A stretch of 64,000 bases of DNA, taken from Hymenoscyphus infarciens (Eukaryota > Ascomycota > Leotiomycetes > Helotiales > Helotiaceae). Both the position numbers and the translations under genes were made by a program. Below, in pieces: positions 22,935-33,071 of this stretch (position 1 is its first letter; every line of letters starts with the position of its first letter). Location: contig LLCB01000226.1 in assembly GCA_001414345.1 (NCBI GenBank), positions 34,948-98,947 on the forward strand. Reading direction: 5' to 3'. The notes beneath the pieces were generated by a model that worked only from the letters and a program-made list of their open reading frames with translations, did no database searches and was not told the DNA's origin.

Positions 22935-23891
22935 GCACGCAAAATAACCCCCCCTCTCTTACTTTGAATTACACAACAACCGCTTTCTAGGATGGTTAGA
23001 TAATTTATTCTATGGCTCTTTATATACTTAGGATTATGAATTTTAAATTATATACTTTATGGGGTAGACCTAAAAGTTGTAGATTCTTTTAGGCATATAC
23101 GTAAAACCCCGTTTTCGCTAGTCGCTACGCTTACAAAACCCACCCTCTCTCTCAACCACAATTACTTAACAACAGCTTTTCAGAATCGTTAGGTAATTTA
23201 TTCTGTGGCTCTTTCTATACTTCAGATCATAAGTTCTAAGTGCTATAGTTTTAAGAGCAGACTTAAAAGTTGTAGAGTGTTTTAGGGAGCTGTTCTTTCG
23301 CGATATATATTAGTGGTGCACGCAAAACCTCTCTCTTATACTCTCTCAACAACCACTTTTCAAAATAGCTAGATAATTTATTCTAAGGTTCTTTATATAC
23401 TTAGGATTATAAATTGTAAATTATACACTTTAAGGGGTGGACCCAAAAGCTGTAAAGCGTTGTGGGATGCCCTCTTTTCGTGAAAATTTATAGCGGTGGT
23501 GCACGCAAAACCCTCTCTCATACCCTCCCTCTCAACCACAATTACCCAACAACGGCTTTTCAGAATCATTAGATAATTTATTCTATTGCTCTTTATATAC
23601 TCAGGATTACAAATTTTAGATATTATACTTTAAGGGCTAGGCCCAAAAGTTGGAGTACGTTTTGAGGTACCCTCTTTTCGTATGGCGGTGGTGTACGCAA
23701 AACCCTCTCTTTTACTCTCTATCTTAAATTGAATTACTTAACAACCACACTTAAGAATGGTTAGATAATTAAGTATAAGCTTTTTTTATATACCTAAATC
23801 TATATTAAAGCACTTTTTATAAAAATGGGGCTATACTCAAAAGTCGTAGTATGTTTTGAGATGCTCCCTTTTCGCGAAGCTTCTTAGTAGT
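22935..23891. repeat. Five-copy tandem repeat, unit about 183-199 bp
   Basis: Units begin near 22935, 23128, 23318, 23501 and 23693, and the array ends near 23891. Each contains, in order, GCACGCAAAACC, a CTCTCT tract, ACAACNGCTTTTCAGAAT, TAGATAATTTATTCTATGGC, CTTTATATACT, CCAAAAGTTGTAG and TTTTCG. Copies differ mainly by transitions. Non-coding; lies directly upstream of the 3' end of the first UstYa-family gene. Confidence 0.88.
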
Positions 23892-24046: not shown

Positions 24047-25025
24047 CTACTCTGGCCCGACGATGCTCTGAATATCATCCACTCTTCGGTCCTCAATCCA
24101 TTTAACGGCCTCTGAACGATCACGACACATGTGAGCCTGGCCTTCACCCATAGCACCCAACCCACTCTGGCTCCCCTCCAATGTCATATCGCTCATACAG
24201 AGGAGCTGGTTTCTCAAATACTCAAAGCAATGCGCAGCGTGGTAATCATTTCGTTCCCCGTCAAATCCAAATTTAGTTCCGTTGGAAACGGTGAGTTGGT
24301 GATAAGAGTCCACGGTGTAGTAGAGACAGTGCAGTGCGTGCGTCCACGAAGCTTCGAAAATGGTACCGTTACGGGTAGGGTCGTCATCGACGGGCATTCC
24401 AAGTTTGGGATAGTTTGCGTAATCGGGGATATTAACAGTTCCGCTTCCGACTACGTGAGATGTCAGTTGAGGGTTTATCTGTACACTCAGAAAGAGGGGG
24501 ACAAACGTGGCATTAACATGTCCCAGTTCTTTCGGACTTCCATTCGATTGGCGTCAGTGGTCATATTTGGTACGAATTTTTCCTCCTGTGGTGTAAGGGT
24601 CATGTATGTATGCTTAGCTAAGTTGAGGTTAGAATGAGTGTGGGTCAAATTGAGGAGAAACCCATACTTGGAATGTATAAACCATTAACATCACCACCGG
24701 TTTCTGTCATCCACTCGTCCCACTTTGTACCACCCATCAAACCACTTCTAGGAATCAACAAGACTATGATGACACATTGGAAGAAAAGAACCACACCCCA
24801 TCTCAACCAGACGAACAGATTTTCTTTCCGACTGTTGAACTCCTCTCGCTGTTGAAGTCTCGATTTCGGCGAGAGTGACCGGGAAGGACGAGATTTGAGG
24901 AACGATGAAGACGCGAGAGTGGTATCGGAGTCATTTCCTTGGTCTTCGAGGTCCGTATCAAGGGATAAGTTGGGAACTCCGGAGAGTGTGCTATATTTCG
25001 ATGCCTGGGGATTTGAGGGAGCCAT
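24047..25025 (-). CDS. UstYa-family (DUF3328) oxidase, copy 1
   Basis: UstYa/UstYb-family proteins are membrane-anchored oxidases that cyclise or hydroxylate fungal peptide products (ustiloxin, phomopsin, cyclochlorotine pathways). Exons (minus): 25025-24668, 24617-24507, 24450-24047, giving 290 aa. It has a cytosolic Ser-rich N-terminus, a single TM at about residues 71-91 (WLRWGVVLFFQCVIIVLL), FVPNMTTDANRMEVRKNWDM, then the two family motifs HALHC (H194, H197, C198) and HCFEYLRNQLLC (H230, C231). All introns are short with CTAAC/CTGAC branch sites. The same-strand neighbour at 25788 is a second family member, and the repeat-precursor gene lies beyond. The substrate is inferred only from this context. 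Confidence 0.88.
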
Positions 25026-25787
25026 GACTGAGGAAATTGGATTTGAAAGTGTTCTGGGAAATCAACGAAAGTAAAGAGACTAGCAAATCAATTGCTCAAG
25101 AAAAGAATGGCAAGTCTATTGCAGAGGATGAAAGTAGCAAAAATTAGGTTACAGAAGCACGAAATGTAAAGGAGGGAGACTGCGACCCCAAGTTTTAACA
25201 AAGATCAGACCAAACTTCTCCTTGAAAATAATGAATCAGACGCCTGATCCTATCCAAAGCAGACCTGGTTGCCCGTGTTAGCCTCATTTGGTTACAGATC
25301 GTTTCATCTTATTTACTGCAGGGTGGAAACGTCAGAGCAAAGATAGAGGGAAGGTGAAGGCGAGGTGGAGGATTGGCATCAAGTTGAGATCGGATTGTGC
25401 ATCTGGGTAAGGGGCGGCTTGGCTACAGCGCTAACTTGAGACAAGGTTTGCTGCAGACATGCTTACGTGCATCAGGGGTTGATTCGCTTGGGGGTTGTTT
25501 TTCGGAGAGGGGTGTGGAGCCGATGTTTGAGGCTCGAGTAACGGTTGCAGGGGTGAAGATTCGATGGAAGGGAGATGGAGGCTGAATTGGTGATATCATT
25601 GTTATCAGATTAAAAGGGGCGTGTTGCTCTCATTGTTCAGTGTCGGTAATATTGTTACACGGAGGGCAATTTACGGTTATGTATTGACGAAAATATCGAA
25701 ATGCATATAATTATCATAAAATTGATGTGCGAATCGCAACTTGATTTTCGCTCACATAAATCTAAAAACTACCATGGGAAGAAAAAA
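25026..25787. promoter_or_regulatory. Spacer and promoter between the two UstYa-family genes
   Basis: 762 bp with no coding sequence supported. Must hold the copy-1 promoter and the copy-2 terminator. No binding site recognised. Confidence 0.4.
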
Positions 25788-26836
25788 TTAACGTCTTTGA
25801 GGATGGCTCATATCGGGTCTCTCCATATTTCCTACAGAATGCTCCGTCGCCCAATCAACCACTCTGTCAAAGTTACGGCACTGGTGAAAACTGTTGAGTT
25901 CAGGCCAAGGCAATGGGTCACCTTCTTCCATGTAGAATGTGAAAAGGCCAATATCGGCATTGCACTCAATATTCTTTCTCAAAATCTCAAGACAGTGATC
26001 TATTTCAGTTAGTTTGTGTAAAATGATCAAGGAAATGAAAACGTACCGGTGTGCATTTGAAGCTTTTCTGGTTCAGTGGCTATGTCTCCGTATCCCATTT
26101 CGGTGTAGTAATCTTTGTAAGTGACTTGTCGGAGAAGGTTGACACAGTGAAGTTGGTGGAATCTGGATGATGGGGGGGTTAGTATTTGCCTATCAAGAAA
26201 TGTCTGGGGATATGGCACAGGAGAAATGCTCGCGTTCAGGAATGATTCAAGAGAAAGAAAGCTGGGGAACGGTGTCCCCATTACCTACACTTCTAGACCA
26301 ACACGATATCCTTCCACGCCCGTTATCGGGTGCTTGACTTTCAGTGAGGATTCCGGCATCCCGATAACTTTGAGTTCCTCCGGAGTGATCATTTGGTCGC
26401 CCATGTCGTACGAAATCTTGTCCCACGCCTCGTCGACCGAAGGTCCTTTGCCAACAAACGGTGATCCTTCCCCCATCGTCGCATTGAATTTTACTCTCTG
26501 ATACTCAATTGCACTTGCTGCTGGGGCTGGTAAAAGTGTCAGTTGTTGTCTTGAATTTGTCGGAACATACTCACAGTATGCTGAAAACTTTCGGACATGC
26601 TCCAAGGTTGAAACTCTAGCAAACCACGAAGAAATGAACATTGTCAAAGACAGACTCAGTAATGCTGCGTGTAACACCCAGATCCATCGTGAACCTCCCC
26701 TCCTCTCTGGTTGCATTCCCCTCTGTTCCTCTTCATCGAGTAAAGTTGAGTCCGAAAGCGAACTAGAGGCTCTCCTTGGTGGAAAAACGTCTTGGAACTT
26801 CTCATCGGCATCGTGCACTGGCTGATATTTGGACAT
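25788..26836 (-). CDS. UstYa-family (DUF3328) oxidase, copy 2
   Basis: Exons (minus): 26836-26575, 26526-26289, 26162-26047, 25999-25788, giving 275 aa. Intron 1 (26527-26574) is 48 nt and leaves the frame open, so an unspliced reading carries 16 false residues; splicing gives FSAYSPAASAIEYQRVKFN, the family pattern. Single TM at about residues 51-70 (WIWVLHAALLSLSLTMFISS). Motifs: GLEVFHQLHCVNLLRQ (H169, H172, C173) and DHCLEILRKNIECNAD (H207, C208), the canonical HxxHC pair thought to bind the metal cofactor. It is divergent from the precursor gene at 28133 across 1.3 kb and only about 30% alike to copy 1 by eye, so the pair is not a recent duplication. Confidence 0.92.
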
Positions 26837-28132
26837 TTTTGCTAAAAGAATGAAATAATTACACCTGGTAAGTCAAGAATTGAATAATTTGAAAGTGAAC
26901 GAATTTGCTTGACCAGAAGCAGTTGGGGAGAACAGAAGCAGAATGGGGAGAAGACCAAGTTGTGGAGGATATGATTGGCAGAAAGGGGCAACGACAAACG
27001 ATTATCGCCTCCTCCCCGGTTCTGTCTGATCATCAAAATCCCTCGTGCCAAGTCTTAGATATCGGATGTCCTGAAACTAAGTGCTCGAACCCAGCGAGTT
27101 TGAGGTCACCGTAGCCGCAAACAATGGCGGTAAAGCTTCAATGCGGCTGGAAATCCTTCTGTGTGGAAGAAATGGGGGGAAAGTGGACCCTTTCAATCAC
27201 TGGCTAAACGTCAAAATGTCGTAAAATCCCGAGAAATTCAGTAATGGTAACTAGAAACATGCTGGTTTCAACAGCGATAAACATCACAATTTGATACATG
27301 CTTTTGGCTCATGACTCGGTGGAGAGGCCTATTTGTTGGAAACGGCCTCGTAAGTAAAGTGAAAATGTTCCCAGAGAAGAATTTTCACAAGGGCAGAATT
27401 AGAACAATGCTCACGAGTAAGAGCACAAAGCAGCTGCGGGATATCCGAAATTTCGGGTTCTCGAAACAAGGGGAAAAGAGGCACGTCCCGGGGGCTGTCG
27501 TCTGAAGTCTTAGAACAAGCTTCCCCGGCCACCCCCTACCTTGTAGTGTCAGCATGTCAGCACCACGGGCATTCCCTATCGTGGCGTAGCGCCACCTTAA
27601 CGAGGTAATGTTGGTAAGTGGAGCCGATTTCGATATGTTCTCGTCTCTTCCCCCCTTTTGGATCTTTAGCGTTTCCCCTCACTCACTCCTTCCCCAGAAT
27701 GAGGAGGACCCGTTTAATCTAACCTTATTTGCTTGCATATCAAACACCTCCTCATGTGCCAGAAAGTGTTCACGGCTGGTCTCTTCCTATGTCTATCGCC
27801 TGGGATATGTGAGACGACGATTGGTTTGCCAATTGTGCGGTTCGTCAATCAGGATTTGTCGAGGATGTGCATGGTTACTCCCCATGGCCAATGATTTCCA
27901 ACGGAGGTGTCCAGCAGCCCTGTGTACCTAGTCAGTACCTGTGCTGAGTCGAAAAAAGGGGAGGAATATTTCTGTTAGGGCGGGATTTTGATATAAAGTA
28001 ACGGAATTCTCCCAAAATAATCAGCTCATTCCTTCTCATCTTCTCCATTTTATTCCATTCTTTGATCTTCGGTATTCAACTTTATTCATTCTTTTTAACT
28101 GCCGGCCAGTCTTTATACTTTATATATTCATC
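26837..28132. promoter_or_regulatory. Divergent region between UstYa copy 2 and the repeat-precursor gene
   Basis: 1296 bp. Open frames at 27311-27931 show no family resemblance. Close to the precursor start there is a pyrimidine-rich tract and a TATA-like TTTATACTTTATATATTC (28110-28129). Likely holds both promoters; no cluster regulator gene is present. Confidence 0.4.
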
Positions 28133-29172
28133 ATGCACTCCGTCTCCGTTTCTAAGGTTCTTGCCTTTGGCTTGTTGGTCGCAGCACCACTTGCATCCGC
28201 CCAACCTATCGACACTTCCTCCGACTTGAGCAAGAAGTGGGTTGGCGGACCAGCTGCTTGGATTAGATCCATTCTTCCAGTTGAAGCTAGACATCATACA
28301 AAAGCTCAGATAGCGGCCAAAACCAAGGGAGCTCGTGATATCGAAGTTGTCCAGTCCCGTGACCTCCAAGATAGACAGCCACATCATACCAAAGCGTAAG
28401 TTCTTCTCTTCCTGACAACCATGGGGCGCTTAGTCAATTGTATGATCTTCCCTGAACTTTAACTGACAATCCGTAGGCAGATAGCAGCCAAAGCTGGTGG
28501 CAAGGCCGCTCGTGATGTGGAGGAACGCCAGCCACATCATACTAAAGCGTTAGTCTTCCCTTAACCATTTGGATATCTAACTCCGTCCACTGACAAGTTC
28601 CACAGTCAAATTGCAGCCAAGGCCGGTGGCAAGGCTGCTCGTGATCTCACTGTTGAAGAACAAGAGGATCTTGAGGACGCCGAGGATGCTGAAGACGAAC
28701 TTGAGACCCGTTCCCCTCATCGTTAGTATAAAGGACTTTCTATTTTTACGAATCATCCAGCTGACTCCAAATATACACTAAAGCACAGATAGCTCAGAAG
28801 GCAGCTGGCAAATCTGCTCGTGATCTTACAATCGAAGAACAAGAGGATCTCGAGGATGCCGAAGATGCTGAAGACGAGCTCGAGACTCGTTCCCCTCATC
28901 GTTAGTATAAAGGACTTTCCAGTTTTACGAATCATCCAGCTGACTCCAAATATACACCAAAGCACAGATAGCGGCCAAATCTAGCGGGAAGGCTGCTCGT
29001 GATCTTACTATTGAAGAGCAAGAGGATCTTGAAGACGCTGAGGATGCTGAAGACGAGCTTGAGACACGTTCTCCCCACCATACCAAATCGTATGTTGTCT
29101 CCGTTCTTTACATGATATAAACTAACCGCTTCTAGTCAAATTGCGGCCAAGGCTAGCAAAGCTGGAAACTAG
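28133..29172 (+). CDS. Secreted repeat-containing precursor, candidate RiPP (dikaritin-like) precursor peptide
   Basis: Exons 28133-28395, 28477-28548, 28606-28721, 28784-28900, 28963-29089 and 29136-29172, giving 243 aa. Signal peptide is residues 1-23 (LAFGLLVAAPLASA|QPID). It is followed by a short pro-region containing the only two Trp. Six repeats follow, based on PHHTKAQIAAKAGGKAARD, each preceded by Arg (EAR, QDR, EER, ETR) and, in repeats 3-5, separated by the acidic spacer LTIEEQEDLEDAEDAEDELE. Repeats 4 and 5 start SPHPQIA because their introns use an AAG acceptor. Every intron interrupts the repeat at the same place (HHTKA or PH). Known fungal RiPP precursors share this plan: signal peptide, repeated cores and protease sites. 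There are no dibasic KR sites, so Kex2 processing is uncertain. A structural or pheromone-like secreted repeat protein is the alternative. Confidence 0.75.
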
Positions 29173-31253
29173 AGGTCCCCAAGGATAAGTTATGGATCGA
29201 GAGGAAAGGAGGCATGGTGAAAAGGTTCTTTGACACTTGTCGACCCTTCCATTTTTTGTAAATCATATTGAATCCACTGAATTTCAACTTGAAAACTTCA
29301 TTCACACGTGTAAACCACGGTTGGGAACTTGCGCGAACCACCTTGCTTTATTTTGACATTGACTATAACATTTGGAGACAACCTAGGATTAGAGGCTAGA
29401 GAAATTCTTTGAGAGAGTAATTATTATTTTTGCTTTATTTCTTTCAAGGTAATAGCGAAAAGATATTACTTAACAAGAGAGGTTTCAATAAGGAGAGATG
29501 AATATATAATTAGATATTCAGCTTCTATTATTAACCTACTTACTATATACTTTCTTATTTAGCTAGAAAATTTAATATCTAATAAGTAGTTTATTATAGA
29601 AATAAACGTTATAGTAGTTAATAGATAAAGAAATATTTAAAAAACTAGATTCGACTTCTCTATCTAGTAAAAAGCCTATACTATAATTCCTTATTAAGCT
29701 AAAAAACGTTAAAGCTTAATATAGAGATTATTATAGAAATAAATCTTATACTAGTTAATTATAATAAAAACGTTAAAGAAATAAAATTCTAATTTCTCTT
29801 TAGAATTTAAAAAACTCGCTTATACTTCTTAATTTTACTAGAAACGTTAAAAGCTAATATATAATTTATTATAAAAATAAATATTAAGATATTCGTTTTA
29901 AGCGTAAACGATATAATCTAGAATTACCGAGTTAATATACTAGCTAGGCTTTAGATATTATTATTATAGAGATTATTATTATCTATACTATTTAATAGAT
30001 TTTAGACTATAATATTATTAGACTTTTATATAGTCTAATCTCTTAAATATAGATATTCTAACTCTCTTAATATAAAAGACTATTTTAGTCTTTTCTTTAG
30101 TATTAAGCCTAGTATTTATATATATTATTTTACTAAATATACTCTTATATACCTTCTTCTAATAGTAGTTCAAGTTTAGTACTATTCTAACTTTTAAGAT
30201 AATTCTATAGTTATAAAATAGTTACTAAGAGTATTCTATTATTCTAAGACTATTTTAAAAGCGTTTTAGAATCTAGATATATAGACTATATAGCTCTCTA
30301 AAAATTCGACTTTATATCTTTAAATATCTTCTACTCTTATATATAAGTCTATATAAAGACCTTTATCTATCTACTCTAGATTATCTATCTTTATTATATT
30401 TAAAGAAACTTTTACTAAAACACTTATTTTTAATAGATCTCTACTATTAAAAGAACCTTCTAAACTAATATAGAGAGCTATATTATCTTTAGAATATAGT
30501 ATAGTAGACTTAGGTCGCGTAGATAAACTATTTAGAAACTTAAATATTCTTATAAAATTAGTATTAAAGCTTTAAGAATAATACTAAGTATAAAGAAAAG
30601 GTTTATATACTATCTTTACTTCTTACTCTTAGGTATTTAAAAGAGTTCTTATTTTATAAGAGTATTCTAGAATAGTTCTAACTTTATAAGACTATTCTAG
30701 AAAGGATTAAAAGACCTAATATAATAGTAAAGCAGAAATAGAGTAGAGAAGTAGTCTATTCGTAGTTATTAACGCGAAAACTAAGGTAAAGAGCGGAGAT
30801 AGCTCTAAACGATACTAATATATAGGATTCTCCTACGCGGTAAAGAGTCACGTAACTAGTCTGAAACCAGAACTGCTATAGTCTTAAATCAGGACTATTA
30901 TATCTAGAACTATATAAAATCTCTTTCTACTAATTTTATAATCTATTTTATAACTATTTTATAATAGAGAACTAGTAAATAGAATCACTATTATCTTTAA
31001 TACTCTATTTTATAAACTATTAATAATTATCTATCTCTTAATTATTTTTATTATAAAATAATTAAAGAATTATAAGATTAATAAGTATTTAGATAGCTAT
31101 AGAAGCGTCTTAGAACTATTTAGAATATTAAAATAATTATAAAATTCTCTATTTACTCTCTCTTTTCTTTTAAGATTTATTTATTACTTTTACTAAGAAA
31201 ATATATTTATAAGAATATTTATAGTTTAAAATTTTACTTATCTTATAAAAAGT
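29173..31253. other. AT-rich, RIP-like island (left part)
   Basis: From about 29400 the sequence is extremely AT-rich, dominated by TATA/TTAG/CTAT words with very few CpA, and has stops in all frames. This is the expected end state of RIP on multicopy DNA. It contains one diverged LTR copy (30720-30880); nothing else is resolvable. Confidence 0.75.
30720..30880. repeat. Diverged solo copy of the 31351 LTR family
   Basis: Shares AGAGTAGAGAAGTAGTCTAT, CGTAGTTATTAA, GTAAAGAGCG, AGCTCTAAACGAT, AGAGTCACGT and CTGAAACCAGAACT in order with the LTR at 31351-31521. Ends are approximate; no target duplication seen. Confidence 0.65.
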
Positions 31254-32591
31254 TGTTATAGAACAAAGATAGATTAGACAAAGGATTATATAACCTTTTA
31301 AGCGAGGAGTATAGTATTTAAAGCCTTATACTCTTCTCTATAGTTCTAGGTGTAATAATAAGATAGAAGTAGAGTAGAGAAGTAGTCTATTCGTAGTTAT
31401 TAATACGAAAACTAAAGGTAAAGAGCGAAGACAGCTCTAAACGATGCTAATATATAAGAGGTTTCAGACAGGCGGTGAAAGAGTCACGTGATAGGTCTGA
31501 AACCAGAACTAGGCTGTCACATTTCTCTCTCTTCAGTAGAGCTCGCTCTTAAGCTCTATAGCTCTAGAAACTAGTATACTTGTCTATCTATATATCTACT
31601 AGCTACTTATACTCTTACTCTTCTATCTACTAAGGTAGCTATAAGATACTAGCTCTATAAGAGTAGTGAGATACTAGCTTTATAAGAGTAGTAAGATACT
31701 AGCTATACGCCGAGTTGTCTAAAACTCTCTATATTCGCTCTCTAATACTAATCTATATAATCTGCTAAGCGACTAGCGTATACTTCTACGACTTTGTCGA
31801 TTGCTAAAGTATAAGCTTTAAGAGCTTTTGTAATATTAGAAGAAGGAGAAGAAGAAGGCTTTAAGAGTTATTAGAAAACAATATAGCTGAAAGTAAGAAG
31901 GTCTGCTTGAAAAGCTACTCTTATTAAGACGTAGAGAGGCTTCTTCTTATTAGTAGAAGGCTTAGAATAACTGATAATAAGCTAGATAAGCTGTCTTATT
32001 AAAGCGTTAATTATACGAGTATATTAATGTTTCTTTTCGATAAGAGCGCTAAAGTTATATACCTAGCGTACGATGTTAGAGTCTATTATTAGAGTAGTTA
32101 GATACTAGCTATCTATTTGAAGAGAGAGAGAAGAGGGTTCGTAGACGCTAGAGAGAGAGGATCTGAAGATACTAGAAGAAGAGAATCCGAAGCTATTAGA
32201 GAGAGGTCTTAAGCTTAGTATTAATTAAGAGGTCGCTAGTAAGAGGTCTAGAAAGCTATTTAAAGGGGTTTATAGAGTCGGCGGTAGAGAAGCTAGAATA
32301 GAAGTGAGGTTAAGAGCCTAATAAGAAGAGTAATCTTTAGTTTAATATAATAATAAGGTAGAAGTAGAGTAGAGAAGTAGTCTATTTGTGGTTATTAATA
32401 CGAAAACTAAAGGTAAAGAGCGAAGACAGCTCTAAACAATGCTAATATATAAGAGGTTTTAGATAGGCGGTGAAAGAGTCACGTAATAGGTCTGAAACTA
32501 GAACTAGGCTATTATACTAGGGAATTAAGTATCTACTTTAACTTCACTTTACTTATTCTATACTCTCGATATAGCTTCTATAATCGCTATA
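31254..32591 (+). mobile_element. RIPped solo LTR (family A), interrupted by a nested LTR element; TSD AAAGT
   Basis: Family-A LTR segments 31254-31350 and 32522-32591 together match the intact copy at 48119-48294. Outer 5-bp duplications AAAGT lie at 31249-31253 and 32592-32596. Relative to the intact copy, the differences are almost all C-to-T or G-to-A in this copy, with one clear exception (T-to-C) and a short deletion. That is a RIP signature measured within a single window. The interruption is the family-B element at 31351-32516. Confidence 0.88.
31351..32516 (+). mobile_element. LTR element (family B) nested in the family-A LTR; TSD CTAGG
   Basis: The 5' LTR is 31351-31521 (TGTAATAATAAG...GGCTGTCACA, 171 bp) and the 3' LTR is 32346-32516 (TATAATAATAAG...GGCTATTATA, the RIPped equivalent). 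Target duplications CTAGG are at 31346-31350 and 32517-32521. The interior (31522-32345, 824 bp) has no coding capacity, so this is a non-autonomous element. The empty target survives intact inside the LTR at 48119. Confidence 0.9.
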
Positions 32592-33071
32592 AAAGTTATA
32601 AGAAGATATACTAGCTAGTCTAAAGTCTTTACTAGCTATAACTAGAAAGTAACTTTTATATTAGAATATAACTAAGATATAAGTAAGAATAGTAAAATAA
32701 GCTTAAATAACTCTAGATAAGAAAAGTATCTTATAAGTATCTAATTAGTTTTATTACTTTAAAAAGCTAAGAATTTTAAGAGAAATAAACTCTAGATAAA
32801 CTTTTATATATATATTAATCTATATCTTAATTCTCTTTATTATTCTAAGTATTTTAGAAAATACAATTCTTTATTAGCTTATATAACTATATAAGACTTT
32901 AGAGTAATCGTAACTATGCTTAATCTACTTGATTTATCAAAACTTCTAGAATAACGGAATTATTAGAAAGCTTATCCGGTATCTTAGAAATACGTATGAA
33001 TCGTAACTATAATTAGACCACTCGAATTGTTAAAAAGAGTAGAATAATGAAATTAAACCACCGATGATCCG
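32592..33071. other. AT-rich, RIP-like island (right part)
   Basis: Continuation of the AT-rich island. Composition returns to normal at about 32900-33070, just before the decayed coiled-coil gene. Confidence 0.6.

Follow-up and report, generated by a model that had tools for sequence, protein, structure and literature searches.

A conserved UstYa-type oxidase pair beside a putative secreted repeat precursor with hormone-like processing signatures in Hymenoscyphus infarciens

What might a pair of UstYa-family (DUF3328) oxidases act upon when the repeat precursor encoded beside them carries no tyrosine in its repeats? This question is raised by a locus of the fungus Hymenoscyphus infarciens that lies in a stretch of 64,000 nucleotides (the window; contig C142, positions 34948-98947, of a 65.6 Mb genome in 742 contigs). 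Two oxidase genes, A and B, are found there on the reverse strand, and gene C, which encodes a repeat precursor, diverges from B across 1.3 kb. A first-pass annotation had named two DUF3328 genes and a divergent repeat gene at this position, and all three were recovered as intact models, the oxidases with Pfam UstYa matches. We consider it probable that A, B and C are a genuine and conserved locus for a secreted peptide, with UstYa-type oxidases dedicated to it, and, with the same degree of confidence, that they make up a small secreted-peptide pathway. In window coordinates the three genes are as follows.

24047-25025, reverse strand: gene A, UstYa/DUF3328, 290 aa, three exons (25025-24668, 24617-24507, 24450-24047)
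25788-26836, reverse strand: gene B, UstYa/DUF3328, 275 aa, four exons (26836-26575, 26526-26289, 26162-26047, 25999-25788)
28133-29172, forward strand: gene C, repeat precursor, 243 aa, six exons (28133-28395, 28477-28548, 28606-28721, 28784-28900, 28963-29089, 29136-29172)

Both oxidase models have open frames, GT-AG introns and an N-terminal hydrophobic helix, and both match the Pfam UstYa family (6.3e-15 for A and 6.8e-55 for B). No insertion or deletion separates A from its annotated orthologue P0130 at A's two splice joins, and the nearest orthologues, from Hymenoscyphus fraxineus, are 73% (A) and 75% (B) identical. As the first-pass annotation had it, each protein carries two HxxHC motifs; the second of each pair is, however, HAAHC in A (residues 227-231, after HALHC at 194-198) and HTDHC in B (204-208, after HQLHC at 169-173) rather than the HCFEYLR and DHCLEIL that had been given. 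Alignments of hand-picked database rows (30 of the 75 matches to A and 43 of the 120 listed matches to B) together with the window proteins show the exact double motif in 29 of 31 rows for A and in 43 of 44 for B. In the powdery mildews some of the HxxHC residues have been lost from the A orthologues of Podosphaera (P0179) and Blumeria (P0182), where the six positions read HRCNHC and RRCREC, a substitution pattern that suggests loss of oxidase function. Neither A nor B has a close second copy in its own genome, the next matches being 34-39% (A) and 25-41% (B) identical; at least 19 UstYa loci besides the window occur there, with several matches each on contigs C167, C169, C75, C98 and C303. 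A search by sequence for a solved UstYa structure, made with B, returned nothing significant, and the 77 and 64 pattern matches to B in viral and prokaryote contigs, respectively, were all unrelated.

A and B are a conserved pair, as judged from their sequence matches. When the hit lists (for B, 120 of 185 matches) were compared by eye, the A and B clusters were found on longest contigs of equal size in at least 15 named genomes. At least six of these have consecutive A/B locus tags: H. fraxineus (10573/10574), Venustampulla (00090/00091), Chlorociboria (g276/g277), Varicellaria (001555/001556), Verruconis (09513/09514) and Fonsecaea monophora (11106/11107). With tags 006590 and 006592, A and B of Trichoderma sp. 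CBMAI-0711 may have one gene between them, and in Lachnellula cervina A and B lie on short contigs of differing size. Neighbouring DUF3328 pairs have been described before, four of them in Sclerotinia sclerotiorum (PMC6941272; this and the other papers are cited for portions of their text).

The model of gene C has GT-AG introns and an open frame, and its N-terminus, judged by eye, resembles a signal peptide, being hydrophobic and ending in ASA. Six repeats follow from residue 54 onward, which agrees with the number first proposed; four of them read HHTK[AS]QIAAK, while repeats 4 and 5 are modelled as PHPQIA. A single dibasic site (KK, residue 34) precedes repeat 1, and beyond residue 43 there is no Tyr, Phe or Trp. 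A database search with the precursor scored the 7994 candidates with the most shared words and, at a cut-off of E 0.01, yielded nine homologues (E 4.1e-31 to 3.0e-7), among them proteins from Lachnellula hyalina, Botryotinia calthae and metagenomes. Since all nine carry HHTxAQ or YHTxAQ repeats, the repeats are not a product of chance. A second paralogue in the same genome begins at C337:78245 and has six introns and six repeats, five regular and one variant; a match on C214 (E 0.0018) was dropped as a Lys/Ala-rich low-complexity frame in which no HHT repeat was seen. The nine database proteins and the two paralogues of H. infarciens together contain 45 regular units and three variant PHPQIA units. 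In the regular units His2, Thr3 and Gln6 never vary; position 1 is occupied by His in 42 of the 45 and by Tyr in the other three, all of them in P0008. Although the unit pattern fixed His2, Thr3 and Gln6 by construction, a loose rescan (four of nine consensus matches) added no unit, and these residues can thus be taken as truly constant. Five units (P0003-P0007) end after Gln6 in sequence resembling an unspliced intron, and another such stretch appears to lie within the first unit of both P0006 and P0007. A Pfam Pepsin-I3 match on gene C, barely over the cut-off (21.4 vs 21 bits, E 2.9e-4) and with no stretch passing alone, was judged a probable artefact of the acidic repeat.

Upstream of gene C, two further features can be listed.

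26837-28132, no strand: candidate shared promoter, the 1.3 kb divergent B-C intergenic region predicted from the gene models
28099-28111, forward strand: the 13-mer CTGCCGGCCAGTC, 21 nt before the gene C ATG

The only other exact copy of CTGCCGGCCAGTC in the 65.6 Mb genome lies at C337:78208-78220, 24 nt before the ATG of the paralogue; the reverse strand and a backwards control gave none. As about two chance sites are expected in a genome of this size, the placing is notable and the number is not, and the shared descent of the paralogues accounts for the placing as well as regulation does.

How would such a precursor be processed? The spacer of each of the 48 units was counted from the nearest upstream Arg to the core, or to the His of HPQIA in variant units. 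It is absent in 20 units, one X-Pro or X-Ala dipeptide in 26 (EP 11, EA 7, SP 6, QP 2), EA-NP in one and EL in one. The spacer is therefore empty or made of X-Pro/X-Ala dipeptides alone in 47 of 48 units (27 of the 28 that have a spacer), a count that describes a conserved pattern in units related by descent and not 48 independent trials. Of the 48 units, 45 have an aliphatic residue (Val, Leu or Ile) at P4 and 6 have a basic P2. An extended Kex2 motif with aliphatic P4, variable P2 and Arg at P1 has been described (PMC8528282), and X-A or X-P dipeptides after a Kex2 site, the STE13 rule, have been treated as a mark of hormones and pheromones and are reported to be lacking in epichloecyclin precursors and in those of toxic cyclic tetrapeptides (Le Marquer 2019, PMC6339444). 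By sequence, the cut sites of the gene C product fit both the extended motif and the STE13 rule. A kexin P-domain gene (one match, C150) and dipeptidyl peptidase IV (DPPIV)-type matches (C91, C270) are present in the same genome.

Does gene C belong with its neighbours? Among Kex2-processed repeat proteins (KEPs), type G-3 has been described by a di-histidine motif and comprises 64 members in 20 genera, with a DUF3328 gene at most 15 genes away in 57 of the 64 (Umemura 2020, PMC7329392). The di-histidine motif is present in the repeats of the gene C family, the G-3 genera include Lachnellula and Botryotinia, in which precursor homologues were found here, and 13 of the 20 are among the named A/B matches. 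The HHT precursor family is thus probably KEP type G-3, an assignment that follows from the motif description and genus overlap rather than from sequence. G-3 and gene C have in common di-histidine repeats and DUF3328 neighbours; the survey, however, demanded dibasic sites (PMC7329392), of which gene C has its one ahead of repeat 1, so that gene C shows at least three tandem repeats between Kex2 sites with the aliphatic-x-x-Arg motif and fewer under Umemura's strict dibasic rule. In H. infarciens, between 0.36% (window locus left out) and 0.38% (included) of bases fall no further than 5 kb from a UstYa exon match. Because the A/B pair is conserved, 57 of 64 G-3 members lie near a DUF3328 gene and so little of the genome is near UstYa, a true association of C with A and B is favoured over chance.

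Taken together, the best reading of these sequences is a hormone-like secreted peptide that would be oxidised by the UstYa pair, perhaps at N-terminal histidines. In the Golgi, Kex2 would cleave the precursor after Arg and a STE13-type dipeptidyl aminopeptidase would then take off X-P or X-A, releasing a peptide of about 10-17 residues with His1 of HHTxAQIAAK at its N-terminus and its C-terminus close to the following Arg. With less certainty, A and B may jointly oxidise the conserved stretch His1-His2-Thr...Ile; the candidate chemistries are hydroxylation, dehydrogenation and a side-chain link comparable to that between Tyr and Ile in ustiloxin. The computed monoisotopic masses of the unmodified peptides are 1103.620 (HHTKAQIAAK), 1714.970 (HHTKAQIAAKAGGKAAR) and 1616.922 (HHTKAQIAAKTKGAR), and for HHTK peptides shifts of -2.016, -4.031 and +15.995 Da were considered. 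Strong conservation of the core, together with a conserved oxidase pair, suggests that the locus serves the fungus's own needs, for instance in signalling, and does not encode a variable toxin. A bolder and rather doubtful extension is that the UstYa/UstYb pair has switched from Tyr to an N-terminal His and forms a link from His to a beta-carbon, perhaps of Thr3 or Ile7, on a STE13-trimmed hormone-like peptide, which would make the product a His-linked counterpart of ustiloxin acting as a fungal signal and not as a toxin.

Several points weigh against an oxidised hormone-like peptide, the common descent of the repeat units and the indirect footing of the G-3 assignment among them. The first-pass annotation had inferred a cluster of the three genes; the conserved A/B pair and the G-3 figures agree with this, whereas C was observed directly as linked to A/B in no genome other than this one. 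In L. hyalina the precursor (G007466, 45.5 kb contig) and the A orthologue (G004311, 143 kb contig) lie apart, and no UstYa match was found on the 272 kb contig of the C337 paralogue among the matches listed; precursor homologues lacking a UstYa neighbour, if widespread, had been named beforehand as what would refute a cluster, and these two cases go part of the way. Chlorociboria, Venustampulla and Coleophoma have A and/or B matches and were in Umemura's survey, yet they are absent from its G-3 list as published (PMC7329392). Tyr has been called mandatory for the characterised UstYa cyclisations, those of ustiloxins, phomopsin and asperipin-2a (PMC7329392), and is missing from the window repeats. 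In genome-wide Pfam searches, neither a tyrosinase nor an S41 peptidase was on contig C142 among the matches listed, as the first-pass annotation had noted of the locus. Finally, AlphaFold models of the H. fraxineus orthologues are weak (mean predicted local distance difference test, pLDDT, 69 for B and 67 for A) and show the N-terminal helix and nothing more on mechanism, and a PDB fold search with the B orthologue model gave no match at E 0.001, the best being 1.7.

Some of the same points serve a second explanation, on which the product would be an unmodified linear hormone-like peptide processed in the manner of alpha-pheromone, and the UstYa pair a neighbour with another substrate. The STE13 signature, as a hormone and pheromone mark absent from cyclic-peptide precursors (PMC6339444), the precursor copies without linked UstYa genes and the repeats without Tyr all favour it. 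It has to contend with the linkage of G-3 in 57 of 64 members, if G-3 is the HHT family, and with the small share of the genome near any UstYa match; moreover, no other precursor candidate adjoining A/B was seen by eye among frames of at least 60 aa at 20-34 kb, a look that was not systematic. On balance we regard this explanation as improbable, though the strongest of the alternatives.

Peptides with an N-terminal His bind copper. The mature peptide could accordingly be a secreted copper ligand, with trimming that bares an N-terminal His-His and UstYa proteins that oxidise the peptide or need the same metal. In 47 of 48 units the processing sites would leave core position 1 as the N-terminal residue, and each of the 45 regular units has His2; against this, no metal-handling family was found among the 20 of 42 long window frames scanned, HHTKA is lost in two of the six window units, and binding is putative, which leaves the idea unlikely. 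Equally unlikely is a classical dikaritin cluster of the ustiloxin/phomopsin type reduced to its core, which the paired oxidases with double HxxHC beside a repeat precursor and a newer definition by DUF3328 alone with reported reduced functional clusters (PMC12048977) would allow, but which is opposed by the missing tyrosinase and S41 matches, the lack of a YxIx core and the mostly non-dibasic sites with STE13 dipeptides; the earlier label 'dikaritin-type' is not borne out by a precursor with one dibasic site, a STE13 signature and no Tyr, Phe or Trp in its repeats.

The gene for the precursor has five introns, which fall within the repeats.

28396-28476, forward strand: intron 1, phase 2, within the Ala5 codon of repeat 2
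28549-28605, forward strand: intron 2, phase 2, within the Ala5 codon of repeat 3
28722-28783, forward strand: variant intron 3 (GTTAGT...AAAG), giving PHPQIA in repeat 4
28901-28962, forward strand: variant intron 4 (GTTAGT...AAAG), giving PHPQIA in repeat 5
29090-29135, forward strand: intron 5, phase 2, within the Ser5 codon of repeat 6

Of the six introns in the C337 paralogue, four interrupt the codon for the second His in phase 1, the variant comes fifth and the sixth falls in the Ala codon. Three repeats have the variant intron in similar form, namely 4 and 5 in gene C and 5 in C337. With the in-frame canonical acceptors that were tried, the gene models yield PHPQIA or shorter and remove HHTKA, and the C337 variant intron permits PHPYTAAQIA as well; in these models, loss of HHTKA may reflect decay or alternative splicing. 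Retention of the intron in repeats 4-5 (SPHR, then a stop), which would truncate the precursor, was weighed, as was a non-canonical splice that ends the intron in AT and regains HHTKA; the latter was not adopted. No description of an intron-per-repeat design was seen in a narrow literature search that included portions of PMC6339444 and PMC7329392.

The surroundings of the locus were scanned with Pfam in 20 of the 42 frames of at least 135 aa other than A, B and C. The families found are RabGAP-TBC, ABA_GPCR (below threshold), MFS (two), CoA transferase, short-chain dehydrogenase, 2EXR, HRDC and RecQ helicase. None of them is an enzyme known to modify peptides, and the closest MFS frame found is 14 kb from gene A. 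Directly 3' of the precursor, window positions 29400-32600 form an AT-rich block (GC 0.27) with a strong dinucleotide bias resembling that of repeat-induced point mutation (RIP; TpA/ApT 1.62, (CpA+TpG)/(ApC+GpT) 0.23). Four degenerate direct repeats of 159 nt, spaced 180-200, one serving as reference copy and the others 67-74% alike to it, occupy 22949-23680, and a 5S rRNA gene is found at 641-760 (Rfam RF00001, 75.9 bits).

If the oxidised-peptide reading is true, a widespread oxidase pair tied to a Tyr-free, pheromone-processed peptide would widen the chemistry of the UstYa family and link fungal ribosomally synthesized and post-translationally modified peptides (RiPPs) to signalling, and the predicted N-terminus and masses make it directly testable. 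The class itself has probably been counted already, in silico, in genome surveys, and no description of a product of the HHT/G-3 type was seen in the open-licence literature searched, where six of the repeat sequences matched no paper either. As in the dikaritins (ustiloxin, phomopsin and asperipin-2a), UstYa-family oxidases here adjoin a secreted repeat precursor; unlike those clusters, the locus has repeats without Tyr, STE13 dipeptides and mostly non-dibasic sites, and no tyrosinase or S41 match on its contig. Both A and B are DUF3328 oxidases with two HxxHC motifs, a criterion for UstY RiPPs, while the Tyr-containing YxIx core of ustiloxin type is wanting, Tyr occurring in three of 45 family units and always at position 1 of P0008. 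Tyrosinase and S41 peptidase are not required by the newer UstY RiPP definition, which takes DUF3328 proteins alone, and functional clusters without some enzymes have been reported (PMC12048977). Epichloecyclins (gigA) likewise combine a repeat precursor with DUF3328 (PMC12048977), but the STE13 signature is reported absent there (PMC6339444). Ascomycete alpha-pheromone precursors share with gene C repeats in which X-A/X-P dipeptides come after a Kex2-type site, whereas their core (two Cys, or PYGxPxG; PMC6339444) is not that of gene C, HHTxAQIAAK. Gene C also differs from most pheromone KEPs in adjoining UstYa genes, a UstYa neighbour being recorded for 3 of the 216 pheromone KEPs of fungi and for none of the 227 from yeast (PMC7329392). 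The combination of STE13 and DUF3328 nevertheless has some precedent that weighs against novelty: of the KEPs homologous to putative Basidiomycota pheromones, a group for which STE13 dipeptides were described, 17 of 76 lie near a DUF3328 gene, and in Rutstroemia a homologue of the Ccg-4 pheromone lies two genes from one (PMC7329392). The Basidiomycota proteins share the STE13 signature with gene C but belong to another phylum, and the cited portion makes no mention of an HHT core. What sets the gene C locus apart is the conjunction of STE13-style trimming and a Tyr-free core beside a UstYa pair.

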